The notes under the pieces are model-generated. The model was not told where the DNA came from. It ran no database searches and saw only the letters and a list, made by a program, of their open reading frames with translations. This document shows positions 27,904 through 53,972 of a stretch of DNA of 64,000 nucleotides, in pieces (position 1 is the stretch's first letter; each line of letters begins with the position of its first letter). This stretch comes from an uncultured Anaerolineae bacterium (GTDB lineage: Bacteria; Chloroflexota; Anaerolineae; J036; Brachytrichaceae), in NCBI GenBank assembly GCA_937959265.1, contig CALGMA010000015.1:1-64000 (forward strand), in the 5' to 3' direction. Position numbers and translations under genes: made by a program.

Positions 27904-29457
27904 ATGATCTGTAAAGTAGATGTGGCGGTGATCGGCGGCGGCCTGGGCGGCGTGGCAGCGGCGCTGGCGGCGTGCGAGGCCGGCCGATCCGTTGTGTTGA
28001 CCGAAGCAACGGACTGGCTGGGCGGCCAGATGACCAGCCAGGGCGTAAGTGCGCTGGACGAACACGAGCACATCGAGTCCTATGGCGGCACGCCCAGCTA
28101 CATGGCGCTGCGCGAGGCAATCCGCGCGCACTACCGGGCGCGCTACGGTGTGCCGGCCATGCCCGACGGCCAGCCGCTTAACCCTGGCGATGGTTGGGTG
28201 AGCCGGTTGTGCTTTGAGCCGCGCGTCGGGCTGACTGTGTTGCAGACGATGCTCGCTCCTCATATTGTGAGCAGCCGGTTGGTCGTCTTACTCAATCATG
28301 CGCCGAAGTCGGCGGTGGTGCACGATGATCGCGTGACTGAAGTTCGGCTATGCACCACTGCCGATGAGCCTGCCGAAGCAACGATCCGCGCATGCTTCTT
28401 CCTCGACGCGACCGAACTAGGCGACCTGTTGCCGCTGACGGGAACGGAATACGTCACCGGCGCGGAGTCGCGCGCCGACACCGGTGAGCCGGACGCGCCG
28501 CCCGAAGCGCGGCCCGGCGAGGTGCAAGGCTTCACCTATTGCTTCGCAGTGGAGTACTGCCCGGGCGAGCACCATGTGATCGAGAAGCCAGCCAGCTACG
28601 AGCACATGCGCGACGCACAACCCTACACGCTGGTGTTGCGCAACAAAGACGGTAGTCCGCGCCCGTTCAAGATGTTTGCGCCAGGCGTAGCCGGCCTGCC
28701 GTTCTGGTCATATCGCCGGTTGCTTTCGCAGGCATTGCTTGATCCGCAGGGCGCATATGCCCTGCGCGATCTGGCCTTGATCAACTGGAACAGCAACGAT
28801 TACCACTGGCGCAGCATCATTGACGTTTCGCCCCAGGATCGGGCAGCGGCGCTCGACGAAGCCAGGCGGCTCTCGCTGGGCTTCCTGTATTGGCTGCAAA
28901 CCGAGTGCCCACGAGACGAGGGCGGTTTTGGCTACCCCGAACTCAAGCTACGGCCCGATGTGATGGGCACGGCCGATGGCCTGTCCAAGTTCCCCTACAT
29001 CCGAGAGTCGCGCCGGATCGTCGCGCTCACGCGCATCATGGAGCAGGATATTCTGGCCGCGTTGCGGCCGGATGCCAAGCAGGCCGCATGGCGCGATTCG
29101 ATCGGCGTCGGTTGGTATCCGATGGATCTGCATCCGGCAGTCGGCAACTCCCGCTCTATGTTTGAGCCGACCTTGCCGTTCCAGATCCCGCTTGGCGCGC
29201 TCATCCCACGTCGCACGGAGAACCTCATCGCTGCATGCAAGAACATCGGCACGACGCACCTGACCAACGGCGCGTATCGCCTGCATCCGGTCGAATGGAA
29301 CATCGGGGAGAGCGCCGGCGCGCTGGCTGCGTTTTGCTGCGAGGTTGGCGTAGCGCCGCGCGCGGCACGAGATGATGCGACGTTATTCGCGCGCTTCCAG
29401 GATCGTCTTCGCGCGCGCGGTGTGCCGCTCGATTGGTTGCCGCTGGTGGGCCATTGA
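27904..29457 (+). CDS. FAD-dependent oxidoreductase (FAD_oxidored family)
   Basis: 517 residues. The N-terminal FAD loop is VAVIGGGLGGVAAALAA, followed by GRSVVLTEATDWLGGQMTSQG, which is the hallmark of the FAD_oxidored family where a cysteine or glutamine follows the GG. A second nucleotide contact is CFFLDATELGDLL, and the C-terminal TENLIAACKNIGTTHLTNG closes the FAD site. Family members act on diverse substrates and are frequent in sugar-degradation loci of environmental bacteria. It is divergent from the SDR gene. The stop codon overlaps the -35 box of the following leader promoter. Confidence 0.82.
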   Translation: MICKVDVAVIGGGLGGVAAALAACEAGRSVVLTEATDWLGGQMTSQGVSALDEHEHIESYGGTPSYMALREAIRAHYRARYGVPAMPDGQPLNPGDGWVSRLCFEPRVGLTVLQTMLAPHIVSSRLVVLLNHAPKSAVVHDDRVTEVRLCTTADEPAEATIRACFFLDATELGDLLPLTGTEYVTGAESRADTGEPDAPPEARPGEVQGFTYCFAVEYCPGEHHVIEKPASYEHMRDAQPYTLVLRNKDGSPRPFKMFAPGVAGLPFWSYRRLLSQALLDPQGAYALRDLALINWNSNDYHWRSIIDVSPQDRAAALDEARRLSLGFLYWLQTECPRDEGGFGYPELKLRPDVMGTADGLSKFPYIRESRRIVALTRIMEQDILAALRPDAKQAAWRDSIGVGWYPMDLHPAVGNSRSMFEPTLPFQIPLGALIPRRTENLIAACKNIGTTHLTNGAYRLHPVEWNIGESAGALAAFCCEVGVAPRAARDDATLFARFQDRLRARGVPLDWLPLVGH

Positions 29458-29482
29458 CAAGGACGGCCCATCTCGTTAACAT
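29454..29482 (+). promoter_or_regulatory. Promoter of the leader peptide and liv-type operon
   Basis: A perfect TTGACA (29454-29459) and TAACAT (29477-29482) are separated by the ideal 17 nt. It is the best -35/-10 pair found in the window. Transcription would begin near 29489, about 20 nt before the leader ORF and 280 nt before the binding-protein gene. Confidence 0.75.
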
Positions 29483-29508
29483 CCGCGCCAATAGACCGAG
29501 CGACATCC

Positions 29509-29631
29509 ATGCATTTACTTCGAGTCATGCAACCACGACGTGCGACCCGTCAACCGTGTCTCTGCTGCATCGGGACGGCGTGCTTGTGTACTGCGCGGGC
29601 CGGCCGGCTTGAGGCTGACACACGCCGGTAG
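29509..29631 (+). CDS. Cysteine-rich leader peptide (candidate attenuation uORF)
   Basis: A 40-codon frame begins 20 nt after the predicted transcript start and ends at TAG 29629-29631. The peptide begins MHLLRVMQPRR and has five cysteines between residues 17 and 27 (CLCC ... CLC). Its coding sequence contains the left arm of a hairpin (TGCGCGGGC 29592-29600 pairs with 29631-29639), so ribosome position would decide the RNA fold. Cys-rich leader peptides with a basic N-terminal half are known upstream of sulfur genes in actinobacteria. It is not matched to any family I can name with certainty, and its translation is inferred. Confidence 0.55.
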   Translation: MHLLRVMQPRRATRQPCLCCIGTACLCTARAGRLEADTRR

Positions 29632-29743
29632 CCCGCGCACCTCTTTCGCCTTCGTCTGTCACGTTTCTGTCGCTGCAGTGCGCGTTCACTGCACTCTGAT
29701 TTAGGTCTATTCGTCGTTGGCGCCGAGGCGCGCGCTTCGGTGC
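29592..29743 (+). promoter_or_regulatory. Structured leader with three stem-loops before the binding-protein gene
   Basis: Three stems follow one another: 29592-29600/29631-29639 with an inner CCGGC/GCCGG (29604-29608/29624-29628); TGCAGTG 29674-29680 with 29687-29693; and GCGCCGAG 29720-29727 with CTTCGGTGC 29735-29743. The last is followed by TGTTATTCTT. This is the layout of an attenuator controlled by the Cys-rich uORF. Otherwise the 311-nt gap between 29457 and 29769 holds no gene. Confidence 0.45.
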
Positions 29744-29768
29744 TGTTATTCTTGAATGTGAGGTTCCT

Positions 29769-30998
29769 ATGAATCGTTCATCTTCTTCTGTTTCTGTGCG
29801 CGGTAGCAAACACACCCTCCCAGGCGTCCTGATGGCGTTGACGATAGCTGCATCAGCCTGCGCCGTGCAGCCGCCGCCGGCTGCCAATCCGCCTGCTCAA
29901 CCCGCCCCGGCTCAGCCTGCGGCTTCCGGCGAACCGATCTACATCGGCGTGAGCGGCCCGCTCACCGGCCCCAATGCGCGCTACGGCGTGCAGTGGAAGA
30001 AGGGCTTCGACCTGGCGCTCGATGCCATCAACGGTAAAGGCGGCGTGCGCGGGCGCAAGCTCGAATACATCTTCGAGGATTCTCAGAGCGATCCCAAGCA
30101 ATCCGTCGTCGTCGCGCAGAAGTTCGTCGCCGACCCGCGCATCGTGATCGAGCTGGGCGATTTCAGCAGCCCGGCCTCGATGGCGGCCTCGCCGATCTAT
30201 CAGCGGGCCGGCTTGGTGCAGTTTGGCTTCACTAACTCGCACCCGGATTTCACCAAGGGCGGCGACTACATGTGGAGCAACTCTGCGACGCAGGCCGACC
30301 TGTCGCCGGCCCTGGCGGAGTTTGCTCACAGCACGCTTGGCCTGAACCGCCTGGCCGTGTTCTACCTGAACACCGATTGGGGCAAGGCAACCTATGACCT
30401 GTTCCAGCAGCATGCCAAGAAGATCGGCGCGGAGATCGTCGCAGCCGAAGCGTATCTGCCCGACGAGAAAGATTTCCGTTCGGCATTGACGCGCGCGCGT
30501 GACGCCAACCCCGACGGCATCGTGCTGATCTCGTATCAGGCCGATGGCGCGCAGATCGTGCAGCAGTTGGCTACGACCGACTTGAAGGTGCCCATCGTCG
30601 GCGCGTCGTCGCTGCACTCACCCGACTTCCTGCGCCTCGGCGGCGCCGCGGTGGAGGGCGTATACATCCGCGGCCAGTTCTCGCCCGAAGACCTGCGCCC
30701 CACCGTGCAGGCGTTTGTGCAGGCCTATCGCGCCAAATACAACGAAGAACCCGACTTCTTCGCCGCGCATGCCTACGACACGATGAACATCGTCGCCGCG
30801 CTGATCGAAGTCGCCGGGCCGGATCGCCGAGCCATCCGGGACGCCTTCACCCAGATCAAGGATGTGCCCAGCGTGATCTACGGCAAGGTGACCTTCAACC
30901 CCGAGACGCGCCGCGTGGCCAACCCGCAGTTCGTGGACTTGATCGTCAAAGACGGCAAGTTCGTCACCTGGGATGGCAGCAAGCAAGCCGGGCAATGA
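29769..30998 (+). CDS. LivK-type ABC transporter substrate-binding lipoprotein
   Basis: 409 residues. A lipoprotein signal (GVLMALTIAASAC, Cys around residue 31) precedes a Pro/Ala linker. The mature part is a type 1 periplasmic-binding fold: YIGVSGPLTGPNARYGVQWKKG, then KLEYIFEDSQSDPKQSV and the hinge strands of the LivJ/LivK family. Members bind branched-chain amino acids but also amides, urea and aromatic or sulfur compounds. First structural gene of the operon at 29.7-35.6 kb; GAGGT stands a few bases before ATG. The leader peptide upstream suggests its ligand may relate to cysteine or sulfur, which is inference. Confidence 0.88.
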   Translation: MNRSSSSVSVRGSKHTLPGVLMALTIAASACAVQPPPAANPPAQPAPAQPAASGEPIYIGVSGPLTGPNARYGVQWKKGFDLALDAINGKGGVRGRKLEYIFEDSQSDPKQSVVVAQKFVADPRIVIELGDFSSPASMAASPIYQRAGLVQFGFTNSHPDFTKGGDYMWSNSATQADLSPALAEFAHSTLGLNRLAVFYLNTDWGKATYDLFQQHAKKIGAEIVAAEAYLPDEKDFRSALTRARDANPDGIVLISYQADGAQIVQQLATTDLKVPIVGASSLHSPDFLRLGGAAVEGVYIRGQFSPEDLRPTVQAFVQAYRAKYNEEPDFFAAHAYDTMNIVAALIEVAGPDRRAIRDAFTQIKDVPSVIYGKVTFNPETRRVANPQFVDLIVKDGKFVTWDGSKQAGQ

Positions 30999-31026
30999 CC
31001 CGGCGCGGTTTGTGAAAGGATCGGTT

Positions 31027-31066
31027 GGGTCGGCGAAGGCAACATCTTCGCCGACCCGGGCTTTTT
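31027..31066 (+). terminator. Hairpin with T-run after the binding-protein gene
   Basis: GGGTCGGCGAAG (31027-31038) pairs with 31046-31057 and is followed by GGGCTTTTT. It can end part of the transcripts, so binding protein would be made in excess over the permease and ATPases. The hairpin resembles the one inside the MITE-like element at 25484. Confidence 0.7.
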
Positions 31067-31091
31067 GACCCCCTCGAGGAGATCAAGCATC

Positions 31092-32132
31092 ATGCGGATG
31101 AGCAAGCGCGAGCGCGTGGAAGCCGCGCTCAAAGGCGAACCTGTGGACCGCGTGCCGGTGTCGGCCTGGCGGCATTTTGTGCCCGAGGAAGTCTCTGCCG
31201 AGCGACTGGCTGCCGCCAGCCTGGCCTACTTCCGCGAGTTCGACTGGGACTGGCTGAAGCTGAACCCGCGCGCGACATACTACGCCGAAGCGTGGGGCAA
31301 CCGCTACGATTTCGGCGACTACACCTCGGTCTTCCCCAGGCTGGTGGATGGGCCGATTCGCTCGCCGGCCGACCTGGACAAGCTGGCGCCGGTGGATCCC
31401 AAAGGCGGCATCTTCGCCGAACATCTCGACTTGGTGCGCCGCGTGAAAGCGGGCATCGGCGACGCGCACTTCGTGCAGACGGTGTTCTCGCCGCTGTCGG
31501 TGCTGGCGTTCCTGATGGCGCGCGCAGATCAGCATGACGCCGGCCAGTTGATCCAGGCGCAGTACGACGGCATCCGGCGCGCCATTGCCGAGAATCCGCA
31601 GGGCGTTCACCACGCGCTGAGCGTGATCGCCGACGCGCTGGCCGGCTACGCCGCTGCGGCTGTGGACGCCGGGGCAAGCGGCGTCTTCTTCGCCATCGTC
31701 AAGCTCGCCCGCCGGGGCGTGCTCACGGAGGCGGAATATGCCCGCTTTGGCCGCCCTTACGACCTGCGCGTGCTCCAGGCCGTGCAAGGCGCGCCGTTCA
31801 ACCTGCTGCACGTGTGCGGCCCGCAGGTGTACTTCGACGCGGTGATGGACTATCCGGTGCATGCCATCAACTGGGCAACGCTTAACCAGGATAACCCTAC
31901 CGTGGGCGCAGCGCAGTGTTTAACGCAGCGCGCGCTGATCGGCGGGGTAGATGAGCTGAGCACGCTACAGACCGGCGCGCCCGATGATGTCATCGCCGAA
32001 GCGCAACGGGCCATTCGCGCCACCGGCGGACGCCGCTTTCTGCTGTCGCCGGGCTGCGGCGTGAACATGGATGCGCCCGCGACCAACCTGCATGCCCTGC
32101 GTCGCGCCGCCGAGTTACCGTTGCCGGCCTGA
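31092..32132 (+). CDS. Uroporphyrinogen decarboxylase-like protein (possible methyltransferase)
   Basis: 346 residues. The URO-D fold is suggested by [22 protein letters not shown], interrupted for description, and the C-terminal [20 protein letters not shown]. The family contains true uroporphyrinogen decarboxylase and corrinoid-dependent methyltransferases such as MtaA and CmuA. The position inside a liv-type ABC operon and the lack of other haem genes favour a catabolic or methyl-transfer role over haem synthesis. GAGGAG lies 11 nt before the ATG. It is 6 nt before the permease gene. A partner corrinoid protein is not present in the window. Confidence 0.8.
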
Positions 32133-32138
32133 CCGCCC

Positions 32139-33977
32139 ATGCCCGAATTCACCTTGCGCGCGTTCGCCGACCAGCTCATCAACGGATTGGTCATCGGCAA
32201 CATCTACGCGCTGATCGCCATCGGCCTCGCCCTCATCTTCGGCGTGGCCAACCTAATCAACTTTGCCCATGGCTCGGTGTACATGATCGGCGCATACGTG
32301 GGATGGGTATGCGTGACCGGGCTGGGTTGGTCGCTCGGCCCGACGTTCATCGTCGTCGCCGTAGTCTGCGGGGCGCTCGGCGTGCTGATCGAGCGCTTCG
32401 GTCTGCGCCGGCTGCAGAGCGAAGCGCGCATCGCGCCGTTGCTGGCCACCATCGGCATCAGCTTCGCGCTCGACCAATTGGTGCAGCTTATCTTCACGCC
32501 CAATCCGCAGTCGTTCCCCAGCCCGCTGCCGGCGATGCGCGTCATGTTGGGCGGGGTCAGCATCGGCGCGCTCGACGCGCTCATCGCAGCCATCACGATC
32601 ACCATCGCGGCGACGTTGTTCGCCTTCCTGCGCTTCACGCGGCTGGGCTGGGCGCTGCGCGCGACGGCGCAGGACCGCGAGGCGGCGCAACAGATGGGCG
32701 TGGATGTGAACGCGATTAACGCGCTCACGTTCGCGGTTGCGGCGGTGCTGGGCGGCATCGGCGGCGTGATGATCGGCATGTACTTCACCTCGGTCTATCC
32801 GACCATGAGCTACGGCGCGATGCTCAAGGGCTTTGCGGCTAACTTGCTGGGCGGTCTGGGCAGCGTGCCCGGCGCCGTAATCGGCGGCTTGCTGCTGGGC
32901 TTGATCGAGACGTTTGGCGTCGCGCTGCTCGGCTCGACCTATCGCAACTTGTTCACCTTCGTCATCCTTATCGGGGTGCTGGTGCTGCGGCCGACCGGCC
33001 TGTTCGGCGCGCAGCGCGCGATGCCCCCTGAGCCGCTCACCGGCACGTTCGTGGCGAACAGCAAGCCGGTGCGCATCCCGTGGTTTGTGGCCGTCGGCGG
33101 GTTGGTCGCCGCTGCCCTCTTGCCCTTTATCTCATCCAACCCCTACCTCTTGCAAATCTTCACTAACGCCTGGCTGTTTGCCATGCTGGCGTTGAGCATC
33201 ACGCTGGTCACCGGCACGGCGGGGCAGATGTCGCTTGGCCAGGCGGGCTTCTTGGCCATCGGCGGCTACGCCTCGGCCCTGTTGGCCATGCGCTTGAGTT
33301 GGCCGCTGGAGCTGTCGTTGCTCGCCGGCGCGGCCATTGCGGCTGCGCTGGGCACGCTGCTCACGTGGCCGGTCTTCCGCCTGCGCAGCCAATACGTCGC
33401 GCTGGCCACGCTGGGCATCGGCGAGGTGATCAATCAAATCATCCTCAACTGGGAAGGGTTGACCAACGGCGTGTTGGGCCTGAGCAACATTCCGCCGCTG
33501 TCGTTGTTCGGCCTGCCGATCATCGAGACGGCGCCGATCTACTGGTTTGCCCTGGCGATGTTGGTCGTCGCCGCGCTCTTCCAATGGCGGCTGACGCAGT
33601 CGCATCTGGGCCGGACGTGGCGCGCCATGCGCGAAGATGAGGTCGCGGCGCGCGCCTTCGGCGTCTCGCTGAACCGCTACAAGGCGCTGGCGTTCATCGC
33701 CGGCGGGTTGATCGCCGGGTTGAGCGGGGCGTTCACGGCGCACATGTATTCGTATATCAACAACGAGACCTTTGCGGCGACGACTTCGATCCTGGGTCTG
33801 ACGATGGTGATCCTGGGCGGGATGGGCAACATGAGCGGCGCGATCGTCGGCGCCATCGCGCTGACGGCGCTGCCGGAGCTGTTCCGCCCGCTGGCCGACG
33901 CCCGATATCTGATCTACGGCATCGTGCTGCTCTTGTTGGTGCGTTTCCGCCCGCAGGGGTTGCTGGGGACGGTGTGA
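32139..33977 (+). CDS. Fused LivH-LivM branched-chain-type ABC permease
   Basis: 612 residues, twice the size of a single permease. The first half (about 1-295) is LivH-like ([26 protein letters not shown]); the second half (about 310-612) is LivM-like ([40 protein letters not shown]). Each half has about eight membrane helices, and a 40-residue linker rich in Pro and charged residues joins them. In most bacteria LivH and LivM are separate proteins, so this is a natural fusion that fixes the two halves in one chain. It overlaps or abuts livG. Confidence 0.92.
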
Positions 33978-33985
33978 GGCATGGC

Positions 33986-34879
33986 ATGTCGCTGTTAGAA
34001 GTCTGTGGTCTGCGCCGCGAATTCGGCGGGGTCATTGCGGTAGACGGCGTAGATTTGACTGTCGAGGCCGGCGAGACGGTGAGCGTGATCGGGCCGAACG
34101 GCGCAGGCAAGACCACGTTGTTCAACCTGATCACCGGCCTGGACAAGCCGGATGCCGGCCAGGTGCTGTTGGATGGGCGCCCGATCACCGGTCTGCCGCC
34201 GGAGAAGCTGGCCGCGCTGGGAATCGCGCGCACCTTTCAGCACGGGCGCGTGTTCGGCAATCTGAGCGTGCTGGATAACGTGCTCATCGGCGCGCACACG
34301 CGCCAGGCGGCGCATCGCTTGCGCGCGCCGGTGCTGGGCATGATGGCCGAGTTGGCGCTGGCGCTGATCCAGCCGCCGGCGTGGCGCGAGGAGCGTCGGC
34401 GGCTGCGCGAGGAAGCGCGCGAAGTGCTGGCGTTGTTCGGCGACCGGTTGCTGCCGCGCGCCGACCAGCCGGCCTATAGCCTCTCCTACGCCAACCGTCG
34501 GCGCACCGAGATCGCCCGCGCGTTGGCGCTGCGCCCGCAGCTGCTCCTGTTGGACGAGCCAACCGCCGGCATGAATCCGACCGAGACCGCCGAGGTGCTC
34601 GAATTCATCCGCGCCCTCAAGGGACGCGGCCTGACGATCTTGTTGATCGAGCACAAGCTGTCGCTGGTGATGCAGCTTTCCGACCGCGTCATCGTCATGG
34701 ACGACGGGCGCAAGATCGCCGAAGGCGCGCCCCAAAGTGTGCGCGACGACCCGAAGGTGATCGAAGCCTACTTGGGCCACAAGCGTCAGGGCGGCGATGC
34801 GCGGGACGCGCAGCTGGCCGGCGAAGACGATCTGCGCGCCGTCCTGCCGCAGGCGCGCCCTTCTTCGGTGAGCCAATGA
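33986..34879 (+). CDS. livG: LivG-type ABC transporter ATP-binding protein
   Basis: 297 residues. Walker A GPNGAGKTT, signature SYANRRRTEIARAL where the canonical LSGGQ is replaced, as is usual for LivG proteins (LSYGxxR type), Walker B LLLLDEPTAGMNP and switch His in LIEHKLSL. A 25-residue C-terminal extension is present. It energises the fused permease together with LivF. A GTG at 33974 that overlaps the permease stop is the alternative start; the ATG at 33986 gives the usual LLEVCGL beginning. The gene overlaps livF by four bases. Confidence 0.91.
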   Translation: MSLLEVCGLRREFGGVIAVDGVDLTVEAGETVSVIGPNGAGKTTLFNLITGLDKPDAGQVLLDGRPITGLPPEKLAALGIARTFQHGRVFGNLSVLDNVLIGAHTRQAAHRLRAPVLGMMAELALALIQPPAWREERRRLREEAREVLALFGDRLLPRADQPAYSLSYANRRRTEIARALALRPQLLLLDEPTAGMNPTETAEVLEFIRALKGRGLTILLIEHKLSLVMQLSDRVIVMDDGRKIAEGAPQSVRDDPKVIEAYLGHKRQGGDARDAQLAGEDDLRAVLPQARPSSVSQ

Positions 34880-35640
34880 ACGATCCGGTTGCGCTATCCC
34901 CGACGCCGCAAGCATCCTCGTCCGCCTTGCTCCGGCTCGAGGGCATTCAGACCTTCTACGGCGCGTTGCAGGTGCACTTCGGCTTGAATCTGCACGTCTA
35001 CCAGGGTGAGATCGTTTGCTTGCTGGGCGGCAACGCCAGCGGCAAAAGCACGACGATGAAGGTGATCCTGGGCTTGGTCAAGCCGCGCGCCGGCCGCGTG
35101 CTGTTCGACGGCCAACCGATCACCGGCCTGCCGACGCCGCAGATCATCCGACGCGGCATCGGGTCGGTGCCGGAATCGCGTCGCATCTTCTCTGAGATGA
35201 CCGTGCGCGAGAACCTGCTGATGGGCGCATACACGCGCGCCGACCGCGAGGCAGTCTGGCGCGACTACGAACGGATGCTCGAACGCTTCCCCCGCCTACG
35301 CCAGCGGCTGAACCAGCGCGCCGGCGTGCTCAGCGGCGGCGAACAGCAGATGCTGGCCATGGCGCGCGCGCTGATGAGCCGCCCGAAGTTGATCTGTATG
35401 GACGAGCCGACGATGGGGCTTTCGCCCTTGTTCGTGGATCGCGTGCTCGACCTGATCCAGCACATCAACCAACAGGGCGTGACCGTGTTCATGGTGGAGC
35501 AGAACGCCAACCTGGCCCTACAAATCGCCCACCGTGGCTATGTGCTTCAGAACGGCCACATCGTGCTGGAGGGCGCAGCGCGCGATCTGCTCGGCAGCCC
35601 AGAGGTGCGCGATGCCTACCTGGGCGGCGATGCGCGCTGA
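34876..35640 (+). CDS. livF: LivF-type ABC transporter ATP-binding protein
   Basis: 254 residues. Walker A GGNASGKSTT departs slightly from the usual GxNGAGKT by having Ala-Ser in place of Gly-Ala; the signature is LSGGEQQML, Walker B LICMDEPTMGLSP and the switch His is replaced by Gln in VEQNANL, as is normal for LivF. It starts in a four-base overlap with livG, which couples their translation. Its 3' end overlaps the convergent EamA gene by 25 bases, a tight tail-to-tail arrangement with no room for a terminator. Confidence 0.92.
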   Translation: MNDPVALSPTPQASSSALLRLEGIQTFYGALQVHFGLNLHVYQGEIVCLLGGNASGKSTTMKVILGLVKPRAGRVLFDGQPITGLPTPQIIRRGIGSVPESRRIFSEMTVRENLLMGAYTRADREAVWRDYERMLERFPRLRQRLNQRAGVLSGGEQQMLAMARALMSRPKLICMDEPTMGLSPLFVDRVLDLIQHINQQGVTVFMVEQNANLALQIAHRGYVLQNGHIVLEGAARDLLGSPEVRDAYLGGDAR

Positions 35641-53878: not shown

Positions 53879-53972
53879 CGAGGGCGGATGAGAGTCGAAC
53901 TCACCGCAGCTTGCCGGGCAACCTGCCACTGGTTTTGAAGACCAGGACGCCCACCGGGGCGCATCCACCCTC
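53879..53972 (-). tRNA. selC: tRNA-Sec (TCA anticodon)
   Basis: A 94-nt cloverleaf with all features of bacterial tRNA-Sec: 8-bp acceptor (GAGGGTGG/CCGCCCTC) stacked on a 5-bp T stem, discriminator G, a 6-bp D stem (GCGCCC/GGGCGT) with a four-base loop, a long variable arm (GCAGGTTGCC/GGCAAGCTGC) and anticodon loop CTTCAAA with TCA at 53936-53938. CCA is not encoded. It lies on the minus strand between recA and xseB. Known role: carries selenocysteine to in-frame UGA codons. No selA, selB or selD gene is in the window. Confidence 0.93.

Follow-up and report, generated by a model that had tools for sequence, protein, structure and literature searches.

The leader and its operon

The window analyzed here is a stretch of 64,000 nucleotides (nt) from an uncultured Anaerolineae bacterium (contig CALGMA010000015.1), part of a 4.0-Mb Chloroflexota assembly (G000) whose closest named relatives in our scan include Candidatus Roseilinea and a Thermoflexales metagenome-assembled genome. 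Our subject is a 280-nt leader in front of an operon for a LivK-type transporter. A sequence-only reading of the window had described this leader as a cysteine-rich leader peptide with an attenuator. Its elements, all on the + strand, are listed below (G and L numbers are our handles for genomes and loci).

29454..29482, +: sigma-70-type promoter TTGACA-17-TAACAT, 10/12 matches
29509 (ATG) to 29631 (TAG), +: upstream open reading frame (uORF) for a leader peptide, 40 codons, five cysteines in eleven residues
29534..29588, +: predicted helix P0, in which 29534-29544 pairs with 29579-29588; Cys codons in the 3' arm
29557..29568, +: first cysteine cluster C-L-C-C, codons 17-20; varies, lost in G005 (L021)
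29581..29589, +: core cysteine pair C-L-C, codons 25-27; invariant as C-[LMV]-C in 8/8 genomes
29592..29639, +: hairpin A, from folding
29641..29674, +: pyrimidine-rich tract (pyrimidine fraction, Y, 0.79), possible Rho entry site
29674..29693, +: hairpin B, from folding
29718..29745, +: hairpin C, which resembles a terminator with a weak U tract and lies shortly before the livK Shine-Dalgarno sequence

The genes around the leader are the following.

27904-29457: FAD oxidoreductase gene, flanking the leader upstream
29769..30998, +: LivK-type binding protein (Peripla_BP_6); nearest solved sequence 3hut
31065..32132, +: URO-D family, MtaA/CmuA-like methyltransferase with H-x-C...C (family match)
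32139..33977, +: fused LivH-LivM permease (family match)
33974..34879, +: LivG-type ATPase (family match)
34876..35640, +: LivF-type ATPase (family match)

The uORF lies directly behind the promoter, with 26 nt from the -10 element to its ATG, giving a predicted 5' untranslated region of ~19 nt; it is therefore probably not leaderless. A further 137 nt separate its stop codon from the livK start. Three promoter-like sites were found in the 3.4 kb scanned, against 0.5 expected, and TTGACA is kept in 8/8 same-genus leaders together with a -10 element of TTAACAT or near. Hairpin A closely abuts the cysteine codons: its 5' arm begins 2 nt past the last of them, and the final base of the stop codon is where the 3' arm of its outer helix starts. 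The promoter, the 40-codon frame with its five cysteines and the three stem-loops (one overlapping the frame, two before livK) had all been proposed in the earlier reading and were borne out, the stem-loops by folding. From the CLCC...CLC array that it had also singled out, C-L-C is kept in 8/8 genomes and CLCC is not. The conserved element is the second pair, C-L-C, set against the hairpin, and the CLCC cluster is dispensable.

Conservation within the genus

The same-genus set comprised nine genomes, including the window's own, eight of which carry a LivK ortholog. The leader is present in all eight, and the ninth (G001) lacks both. The frame is open and C-[LMV]-C-[TI]-A-R-A is invariant in 8/8 leaders; a loss of the frame or of its cysteine codons among relatives, named by the sequence-only reading as evidence against its own claim, was sought and not found. 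Cysteines beyond the pair differ in number (three each in the window, L022, L003, L004 and L024, two in L023, one in L021 and none in L025), and their codons shift. As the genes upstream differ (FAD oxidoreductase, cystathionine beta-synthase, others), the leader travels with livK.

Based on the seven leaders alignable throughout (L025 was left out), we compared the 120-nt frame with the stretch from its stop codon to livK (148 columns). No gap event fell within the frame against 11 behind it, 10 of which were not multiples of three (Fisher 1.3e-3; Poisson P=1.3e-4). Of these 11, one falls in the stop codon and two overlap. Divergence and column-shuffle tests used six of these leaders, L004 being omitted as near-identical to L003. 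Divergence was 0.35 in codons 1-24 and 0.34 behind the stop, and the absence of stop codons from the frame had p=0.026. Alignment with relatives, suggested earlier as a check, showed the cysteine codons to be conserved, with no TGC/TGT exchange at them inside the genus and a single such exchange outside it, at a codon that is TGC in G330 and TGT in G765. The picture suggested by these alignments is of a frame kept for the cysteine pair and its position rather than for the peptide.

By cysteine density, the uORF ranks top among the 801 ORFs of 15-80 amino acids in the window; being the best of 801 small ORFs, its density is partly a selection effect and proves little alone. With a crude statistic, the largest number of cysteines in 10 residues of any uORF within 450 nt, the window leader gave p=0.032 (genomic background) or 0.057 (shuffles). 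That rank and the near-chance results of such density tests are what a chance cysteine-rich frame devoid of function would predict. Since the frame and CxC are kept in 8/8 genomes, and similar devices stand before sulfur operons (see below), we consider such an accident highly improbable. The sequence case for a leader above chance rests on the conserved reading frame, on CxC as an invariant pair and on the related leaders.

In P0, 95.7% of cells were paired in the aligned leaders, and for the predicted helices 93% of cells pair, against 29-48% with the partners slid. Six same-genus leaders were tested for folding energy, and in every one hairpin A lay below all 257 control windows within 400 nt. 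An RNA model of P0 and A, built from the eight leaders, matched 10/396 class genomes: the eight, once each at this locus, and two weakly (G009 and G093, E ~0.005). The 501 bases around the G009 match showed nothing comparable. Such structure could belong to an untranslated RNA, a riboswitch or another cis element, the cysteine codons being an accident of P0 and A. Invariant nucleotides do coincide with the predicted helices, and third codon positions are not the most variable. Yet the ORF has no frame-breaking indel despite frequent indels behind it, and cysteine pairs recur in leaders that share no alignable sequence. Moreover, L025 retains TGC-N-TG-TGT even though its sequence at the aligned position of the 5' partner of P0 has diverged; the pairing may be shifted there. 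No Rfam match, SAM-I (RF00162) included, was found in the window at gathering scores, and at E<=10 only a 13.9-bit chance match appeared. An untranslated structured RNA thus seems unlikely.

The gene upstream of the leader varies in state as well as in identity. In G002 the FAD oxidoreductase is split over frames (L022:2170-3668), and in G005 (L021:3097-3611) it was not found, pieces of an MLE-family gene (81-92% identity) remaining before the leader. In G003 (L023:2182-3576, - strand) a divergent cystathionine beta-synthase gene (TIGR01137, 538 bits, over the cut-off) starts ~100 nt upstream of the leader promoter; its close homologs (89-97% identity) lie on another contig or far off in the seven other same-genus genomes. 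We dropped this adjacency as evidence, the neighbor being present in G003 alone.

Leaders of other Chloroflexota

LivK searches at E<=1e-80 gave hits in 14/396 class genomes and 10/400 phylum genomes (five in both), and in 1/6 (the genus of G188, the hit being G188 itself), 2/26 and 2/46 genomes of further sets. With L032 and L037 added, these amounted to 23 distinct loci, all taken as Chloroflexota; L037 is labelled Bacteroidetes, and the closeness of its leader to that of L032 suggests mis-binning. Two loci (G106 and G488) are cut upstream by a contig edge. Among the 21 assessable leaders, 15 have a cysteine-pair uORF, two a SAM-I riboswitch and four neither.

The 15 comprise the eight same-genus leaders and those of G011, G188, G154, G330, G765, L032 and L037, with G330/G765 and L032/L037 as sister pairs. 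Beyond the cysteine pair, these seven further uORFs cannot be aligned with the window leader. Directly before their stop codons they end in SCRCVHVCCR (G011), DCCCSRGYTLPR (G188), RCVCCQRER (G154), TCLCR (G330), ACLCS (G765), YCRCR (L032) and YCSCR (L037). These ends bear on whether the nascent peptide itself, with C-x-C-x-A-R-A as an arrest peptide or a redox or metal sensor, could stall the ribosome instead of a shortage of Cys-tRNA. T/I-A-R-A is fixed within the genus besides the cysteine codons, as an arrest peptide would suggest. Against this, the A-R-A codons double as the 5' arm of hairpin A, and the other lineages keep the cysteine pair only, among different neighbors. We regard peptide-borne arrest as decidedly improbable.

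In G666 and G744, the orthologous LivK/URO-D genes are preceded by a SAM-I riboswitch (RF00162; 85.5 and 84.9 bits, cut-off 44.4). The two riboswitches lie at L145:1243-1336 and L150:1171-1264, and both genomes belong to one more distant family of the phylum.

A second kind of operon came from the pattern TGYNTGTGTMGNTAGCGRG (C-x-C-[RS]-stop, then CGRG), which was read from G330 and G765 and searched in 278 class genomes that included neither source. Two genomes matched (G137 and G118). As the reversed control gave four matches, these hits mean little by themselves. In both genomes, however, the match lies in a leader with a TTGACA-17-TATAGT promoter, a short uORF ending in CLCR and a stop codon, a hairpin, and a terminator-like stem before the first gene. 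The genes behind encode a member of the ThiS family (52.2 and 45.1 bits against a cut-off of 22.5), a rhodanese-MoeB protein (538 and 539 bits against 449) and a cysteine synthase, which scored 362 and 368 bits with the cysM model (cut-off 394) and 335 and 347 bits with cysKM (cut-off 344). We take this set to resemble the sulfur-carrier route to cysteine. These operons are the best evidence that cysteine uORFs of this build serve cysteine control in Chloroflexota.

In a sharper test we counted ORFs with a cysteine pair whose start lies <=80 nt from a promoter with 10/12 or more matches. Fourteen leaders entered, six of them without such a promoter. Five of the remaining eight have such an ORF against 1.2 expected (P=0.0018), and 4/7 do when the window is omitted (P=0.005); the three misses include both SAM-I leaders. 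A hairpin begins 0-5 nt behind the cysteine codons in all 13 leaders folded. Ranked among neighboring windows, its energy stands at 0 in the genus and at 0.008-0.016 in G330, G765 and L037; over six representatives the combined p was 4.7e-4, and over the five other than the window 0.008. As the tests against chance, the crude density statistic included, were framed after leaders had been viewed, their P values serve as guides.

The block around the cysteine pair was also tried as a general motif. TGYNTGTGYAYYGCNCGNGC occurs in 15/396 class genomes, eight of them with this leader; the other seven matches, which by eye lie in or across protein-coding frames, were dropped as chance, the reversed control giving one match. 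In a broad set of LivK loci, 17/72 had a cysteine-rich uORF against 11/72 on the control strand, 8/72 being Chloroflexota. A long frame with C-I-T-C, common to four cystathionine beta-synthase loci, was set aside as probably the antisense of another gene.

Downstream gene content differs among the orthologous loci. The methyltransferase gene follows livK in the genus, L032, L037, G106, G188, G765, G666 and G744 (in G744 cut by the locus edge) and does not in G011, G330, G154 and G013. LivHM-G-F follow livK in G011, G330 and G154; for G013, none of them turned up in the stretch covered. Some further features were seen at these loci. Immediately ahead of livK, the distant homologs L148 and L149 share TTGTTTATATTGTTGATCG, which may be a promoter or operator. 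At L160:7930-8985 (- strand) the match to the livK of G154 is spread over two frames, the gene being frameshifted or misassembled, and a 6S RNA gene (51 bits, cut-off 46.4) lies near the G188 livK locus at L141:3568-3750.

Mechanism, ligand and relation to known systems

We consider it likely that the leader is a cysteine-responsive, ribosome-mediated attenuator, most likely of transcription, on a sulfur-uptake operon. Its promoter, frame, CxC pair and hairpin and the sulfur-type regulation of relatives are supported by the comparisons above. Transcription would start just after 29482, and the 40-codon frame would be translated at once. With Cys-tRNA scarce, the ribosome would wait on codons 25-27 (C-L-C), which end 2 nt short of hairpin A; because its footprint at the last Cys codon would cover the 5' arm of A, the hairpin could not form and transcription would continue into livK and the operon. 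With cysteine ample, the ribosome would translate as far as the stop, next to the far arm of A, and then leave, A would form, and the transcript would end before livK, either at hairpin C or between A and C through Rho acting on the pyrimidine-rich tract. Under this scheme, the operon would be induced by cysteine shortage. LivK would most likely import an organic sulfur compound, and the MtaA-like protein would carry out thiol-methyl chemistry on the same compound. Stalling, the direction of the response, the termination step and the ligand are what we infer here. Hairpin A was lost from the footprint folds that placed the ribosome at the stop or on codon 27. The pyrimidine-rich tract behind A has Y of 0.71-0.79 in 7/8 leaders and 0.62 in L025, and the host genome encodes rho.

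A number of results weigh against an attenuator of this kind. Concerning the frame, one alignment out of four puts an 18-nt event that keeps the frame within it, the column-shuffle BLOSUM test over six leaders was not significant (p=0.13; selection along the entire peptide is no defining property of leader peptides), two other frames outscored that of the uORF in the column-shuffle test (p=0.033 and 0.021), and variation was least at third codon positions. Concerning the RNA, helix covariation was not above shuffles, the pairs being mostly invariant, and because the cysteine codons sit in P0, pairing alone could hold part of them. Hairpin A stayed at 0.75 with the ribosome on codon 25, and footprint folds of six leaders gave no conserved antiterminator, hairpin C weakening in 3/6 only. 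The U tract of C is weak, and the pyrimidine-rich tract was picked after the fact. Among the relatives, G013 and the distant homologs G702, G579 and G607 (47-54% identity) have neither a cysteine-pair uORF nor SAM-I, G330, L032 and L037 lack a 10/12 promoter, and hairpin ranks were unremarkable in G011 (0.19), G188 (0.19), G154 (0.13) and L032 (0.09). Over 11 leaders the crude cysteine statistic stayed near chance (p=0.038 or 0.055), and with the window omitted p was 0.10 or 0.12. Outside Chloroflexota, cysteine-rich uORFs preceded 10/64 LivK loci against 9/64 on the control strand, and no short cysteine-pair uORF was common to the cystathionine beta-synthase and cysK-like genes of the genus that we examined.

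The output step could also be translational, with stalling freeing the livK ribosome-binding site; this variant is compatible with the sensing step proposed above. Some folds do pair the Shine-Dalgarno sequence (unpaired 0.02-0.68), and mycobacterial cysteine genes are cited as regulated by translation attenuation in passages of PMC13236596. On the other side, 137 nt separate the uORF stop from the livK start, the predicted accessibility of the Shine-Dalgarno sequence is nearly unchanged across ribosome positions, and G188, G154, G137 and G118 have terminator-like hairpins in the interval from the uORF to the first gene (shuffles expect 0.5-0.7 each). Translational control appears somewhat doubtful on this evidence.

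As to the ligand, LivK falls far below the NCBIfam cut-off of the LivK-type branched-chain amino acid model (127 bits against 477), and no ligand was taken from its sequence because its closest relative among solved chains is a binding protein that is itself unassigned. The URO-D protein scores below the curated cut-offs of the MtaA, MtbA and CmuA families, and its sole solved relative at E<=1e-5 is a methylcobalamin:coenzyme M methyltransferase (E=1e-8). H-x-C...C, which we take to be the zinc-thiol motif of MtaA-type enzymes, is present in this protein and in 11/13 homologs; one exception (36% identity) lacks H-x-C and the other (37%) is not covered. Between livK and LivHM, G011 encodes three proteins: one that passes the TIGR04029 cut-off (104 bits against 101), a relative of TIGR04030, and a flavoprotein of the acyl-CoA-dehydrogenase type whose best matches, all below cut-off, include 3-sulfinopropanoyl-CoA desulfinase, SfnB and DszC. 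In G154 a luciferase-like monooxygenase stretch occupies this position. At LivK loci of other phyla, with flanks covered to at most 4 kb (<=4 kb), relatives of the TIGR04027 monooxygenase occur in 16/73 and of TIGR04029/TIGR04030 in 28/73, many at 30-40% identity, and a MetQ-like gene in two of 73. Examples of LivK with TIGR04027/04029/04030 relatives are L035, L036, L084 and others, and also G011 at L158:5843-8295. From these matches, our best guess at the ligand is a sulfur compound, one that may have a C-S bond open to cleavage or demethylation. The link to sulfur supply guessed at in the sequence-only reading has gained independent support, from SAM-I in G666 and G744, from the cysteine leader before a cysteine-synthase operon in two genomes and from H-x-C...C in the URO-D protein.

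Within the operon, a strong terminator-like hairpin of 15 pairs with a T-rich tail lies between livK and the methyltransferase gene (31025-31059) and could have an excess of binding protein over the remaining operon products as its effect. Judged by eye, the ATG near 31092 is the likelier start of the URO-D gene. Elsewhere in the window, a tRNA-Sec gene lies at 53880-53972 (- strand, 72.6 bits), and the host genome may therefore use selenocysteine.

Leader peptides with cysteine codons in Actinobacteria are reportedly the subject of Canestrari 2020. Such leaders are described before cys operons of Mycobacterium and Propionibacterium and before cbs of Bifidobacterium, in passages of PMC1262725 and PMC4633059. 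Like the window's, they have a promoter-proximal uORF with cysteine codons near its end, before sulfur genes, and a passage of PMC1262725 suggests poly-Y tracts as Rho sites. The window differs in phylum and operon and in its uORF, which is probably not leaderless; moreover, a strong hairpin abuts its cysteine codons and meets the stop, whereas PMC1262725 reports no conserved terminator hairpins for Mycobacterium. Taken as a group, six mycobacterial cysteine sORFs showed no significant positive G/C skew and gained it once the cysteine codons were excluded, according to a passage of PMC9094748.

Trp-type attenuators also have regulatory codons directly before one hairpin arm, the stop at the other arm and a terminator-like hairpin before the first gene; in contrast, no conserved antiterminator pairing was found here, and the U tract of hairpin C is weak. 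The tnaC leader combines Rho-dependent attenuation with a Trp-bound arrest peptide. It likewise has a pyrimidine-rich tract close behind the uORF, but the window has cysteine codons, and Rho action there is a candidate step. Attenuation of the tnaC type is cited in PMC1262725. The SAM-I riboswitch, which stands ahead of the orthologous operon in G666 and G744, has no match in the window. With the MtaA/MtbA/CmuA methylcobamide thiol methyltransferases, the window's URO-D protein has the family match and H-x-C...C in common, although its scores are below cut-off. In the literature searched, the cysteine leaders found were all actinobacterial, and no Chloroflexota case was recognized among the papers listed; the search covered open-licence papers and is weak evidence of novelty.

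More tentatively, and at somewhat less than even chance in our estimate, Chloroflexota may have their own class of cysteine attenuators, in which a hairpin at or behind the stop codon directly adjoins the cysteine codons. These would control sulfur-carrier cysteine biosynthesis and an unrecognized organosulfur importer, and the device would have been swapped for a SAM riboswitch in other lineages. Partner enzymes would vary, a thiol-methyltransferase here and a desulfurizing-type flavoprotein set in a relative, and the importer would bring in a methylated or otherwise C-S bonded sulfur source. Apart from this wider reading, the probable cysteine-leader device turns up here in a second phylum, in several leaders that cannot be aligned, on genes that match branched-chain-type transport families only. 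Its exchange with the SAM-I riboswitch points to two unrelated sensors for the same genes, and regulation by the leader gives an orphan transporter a testable function.

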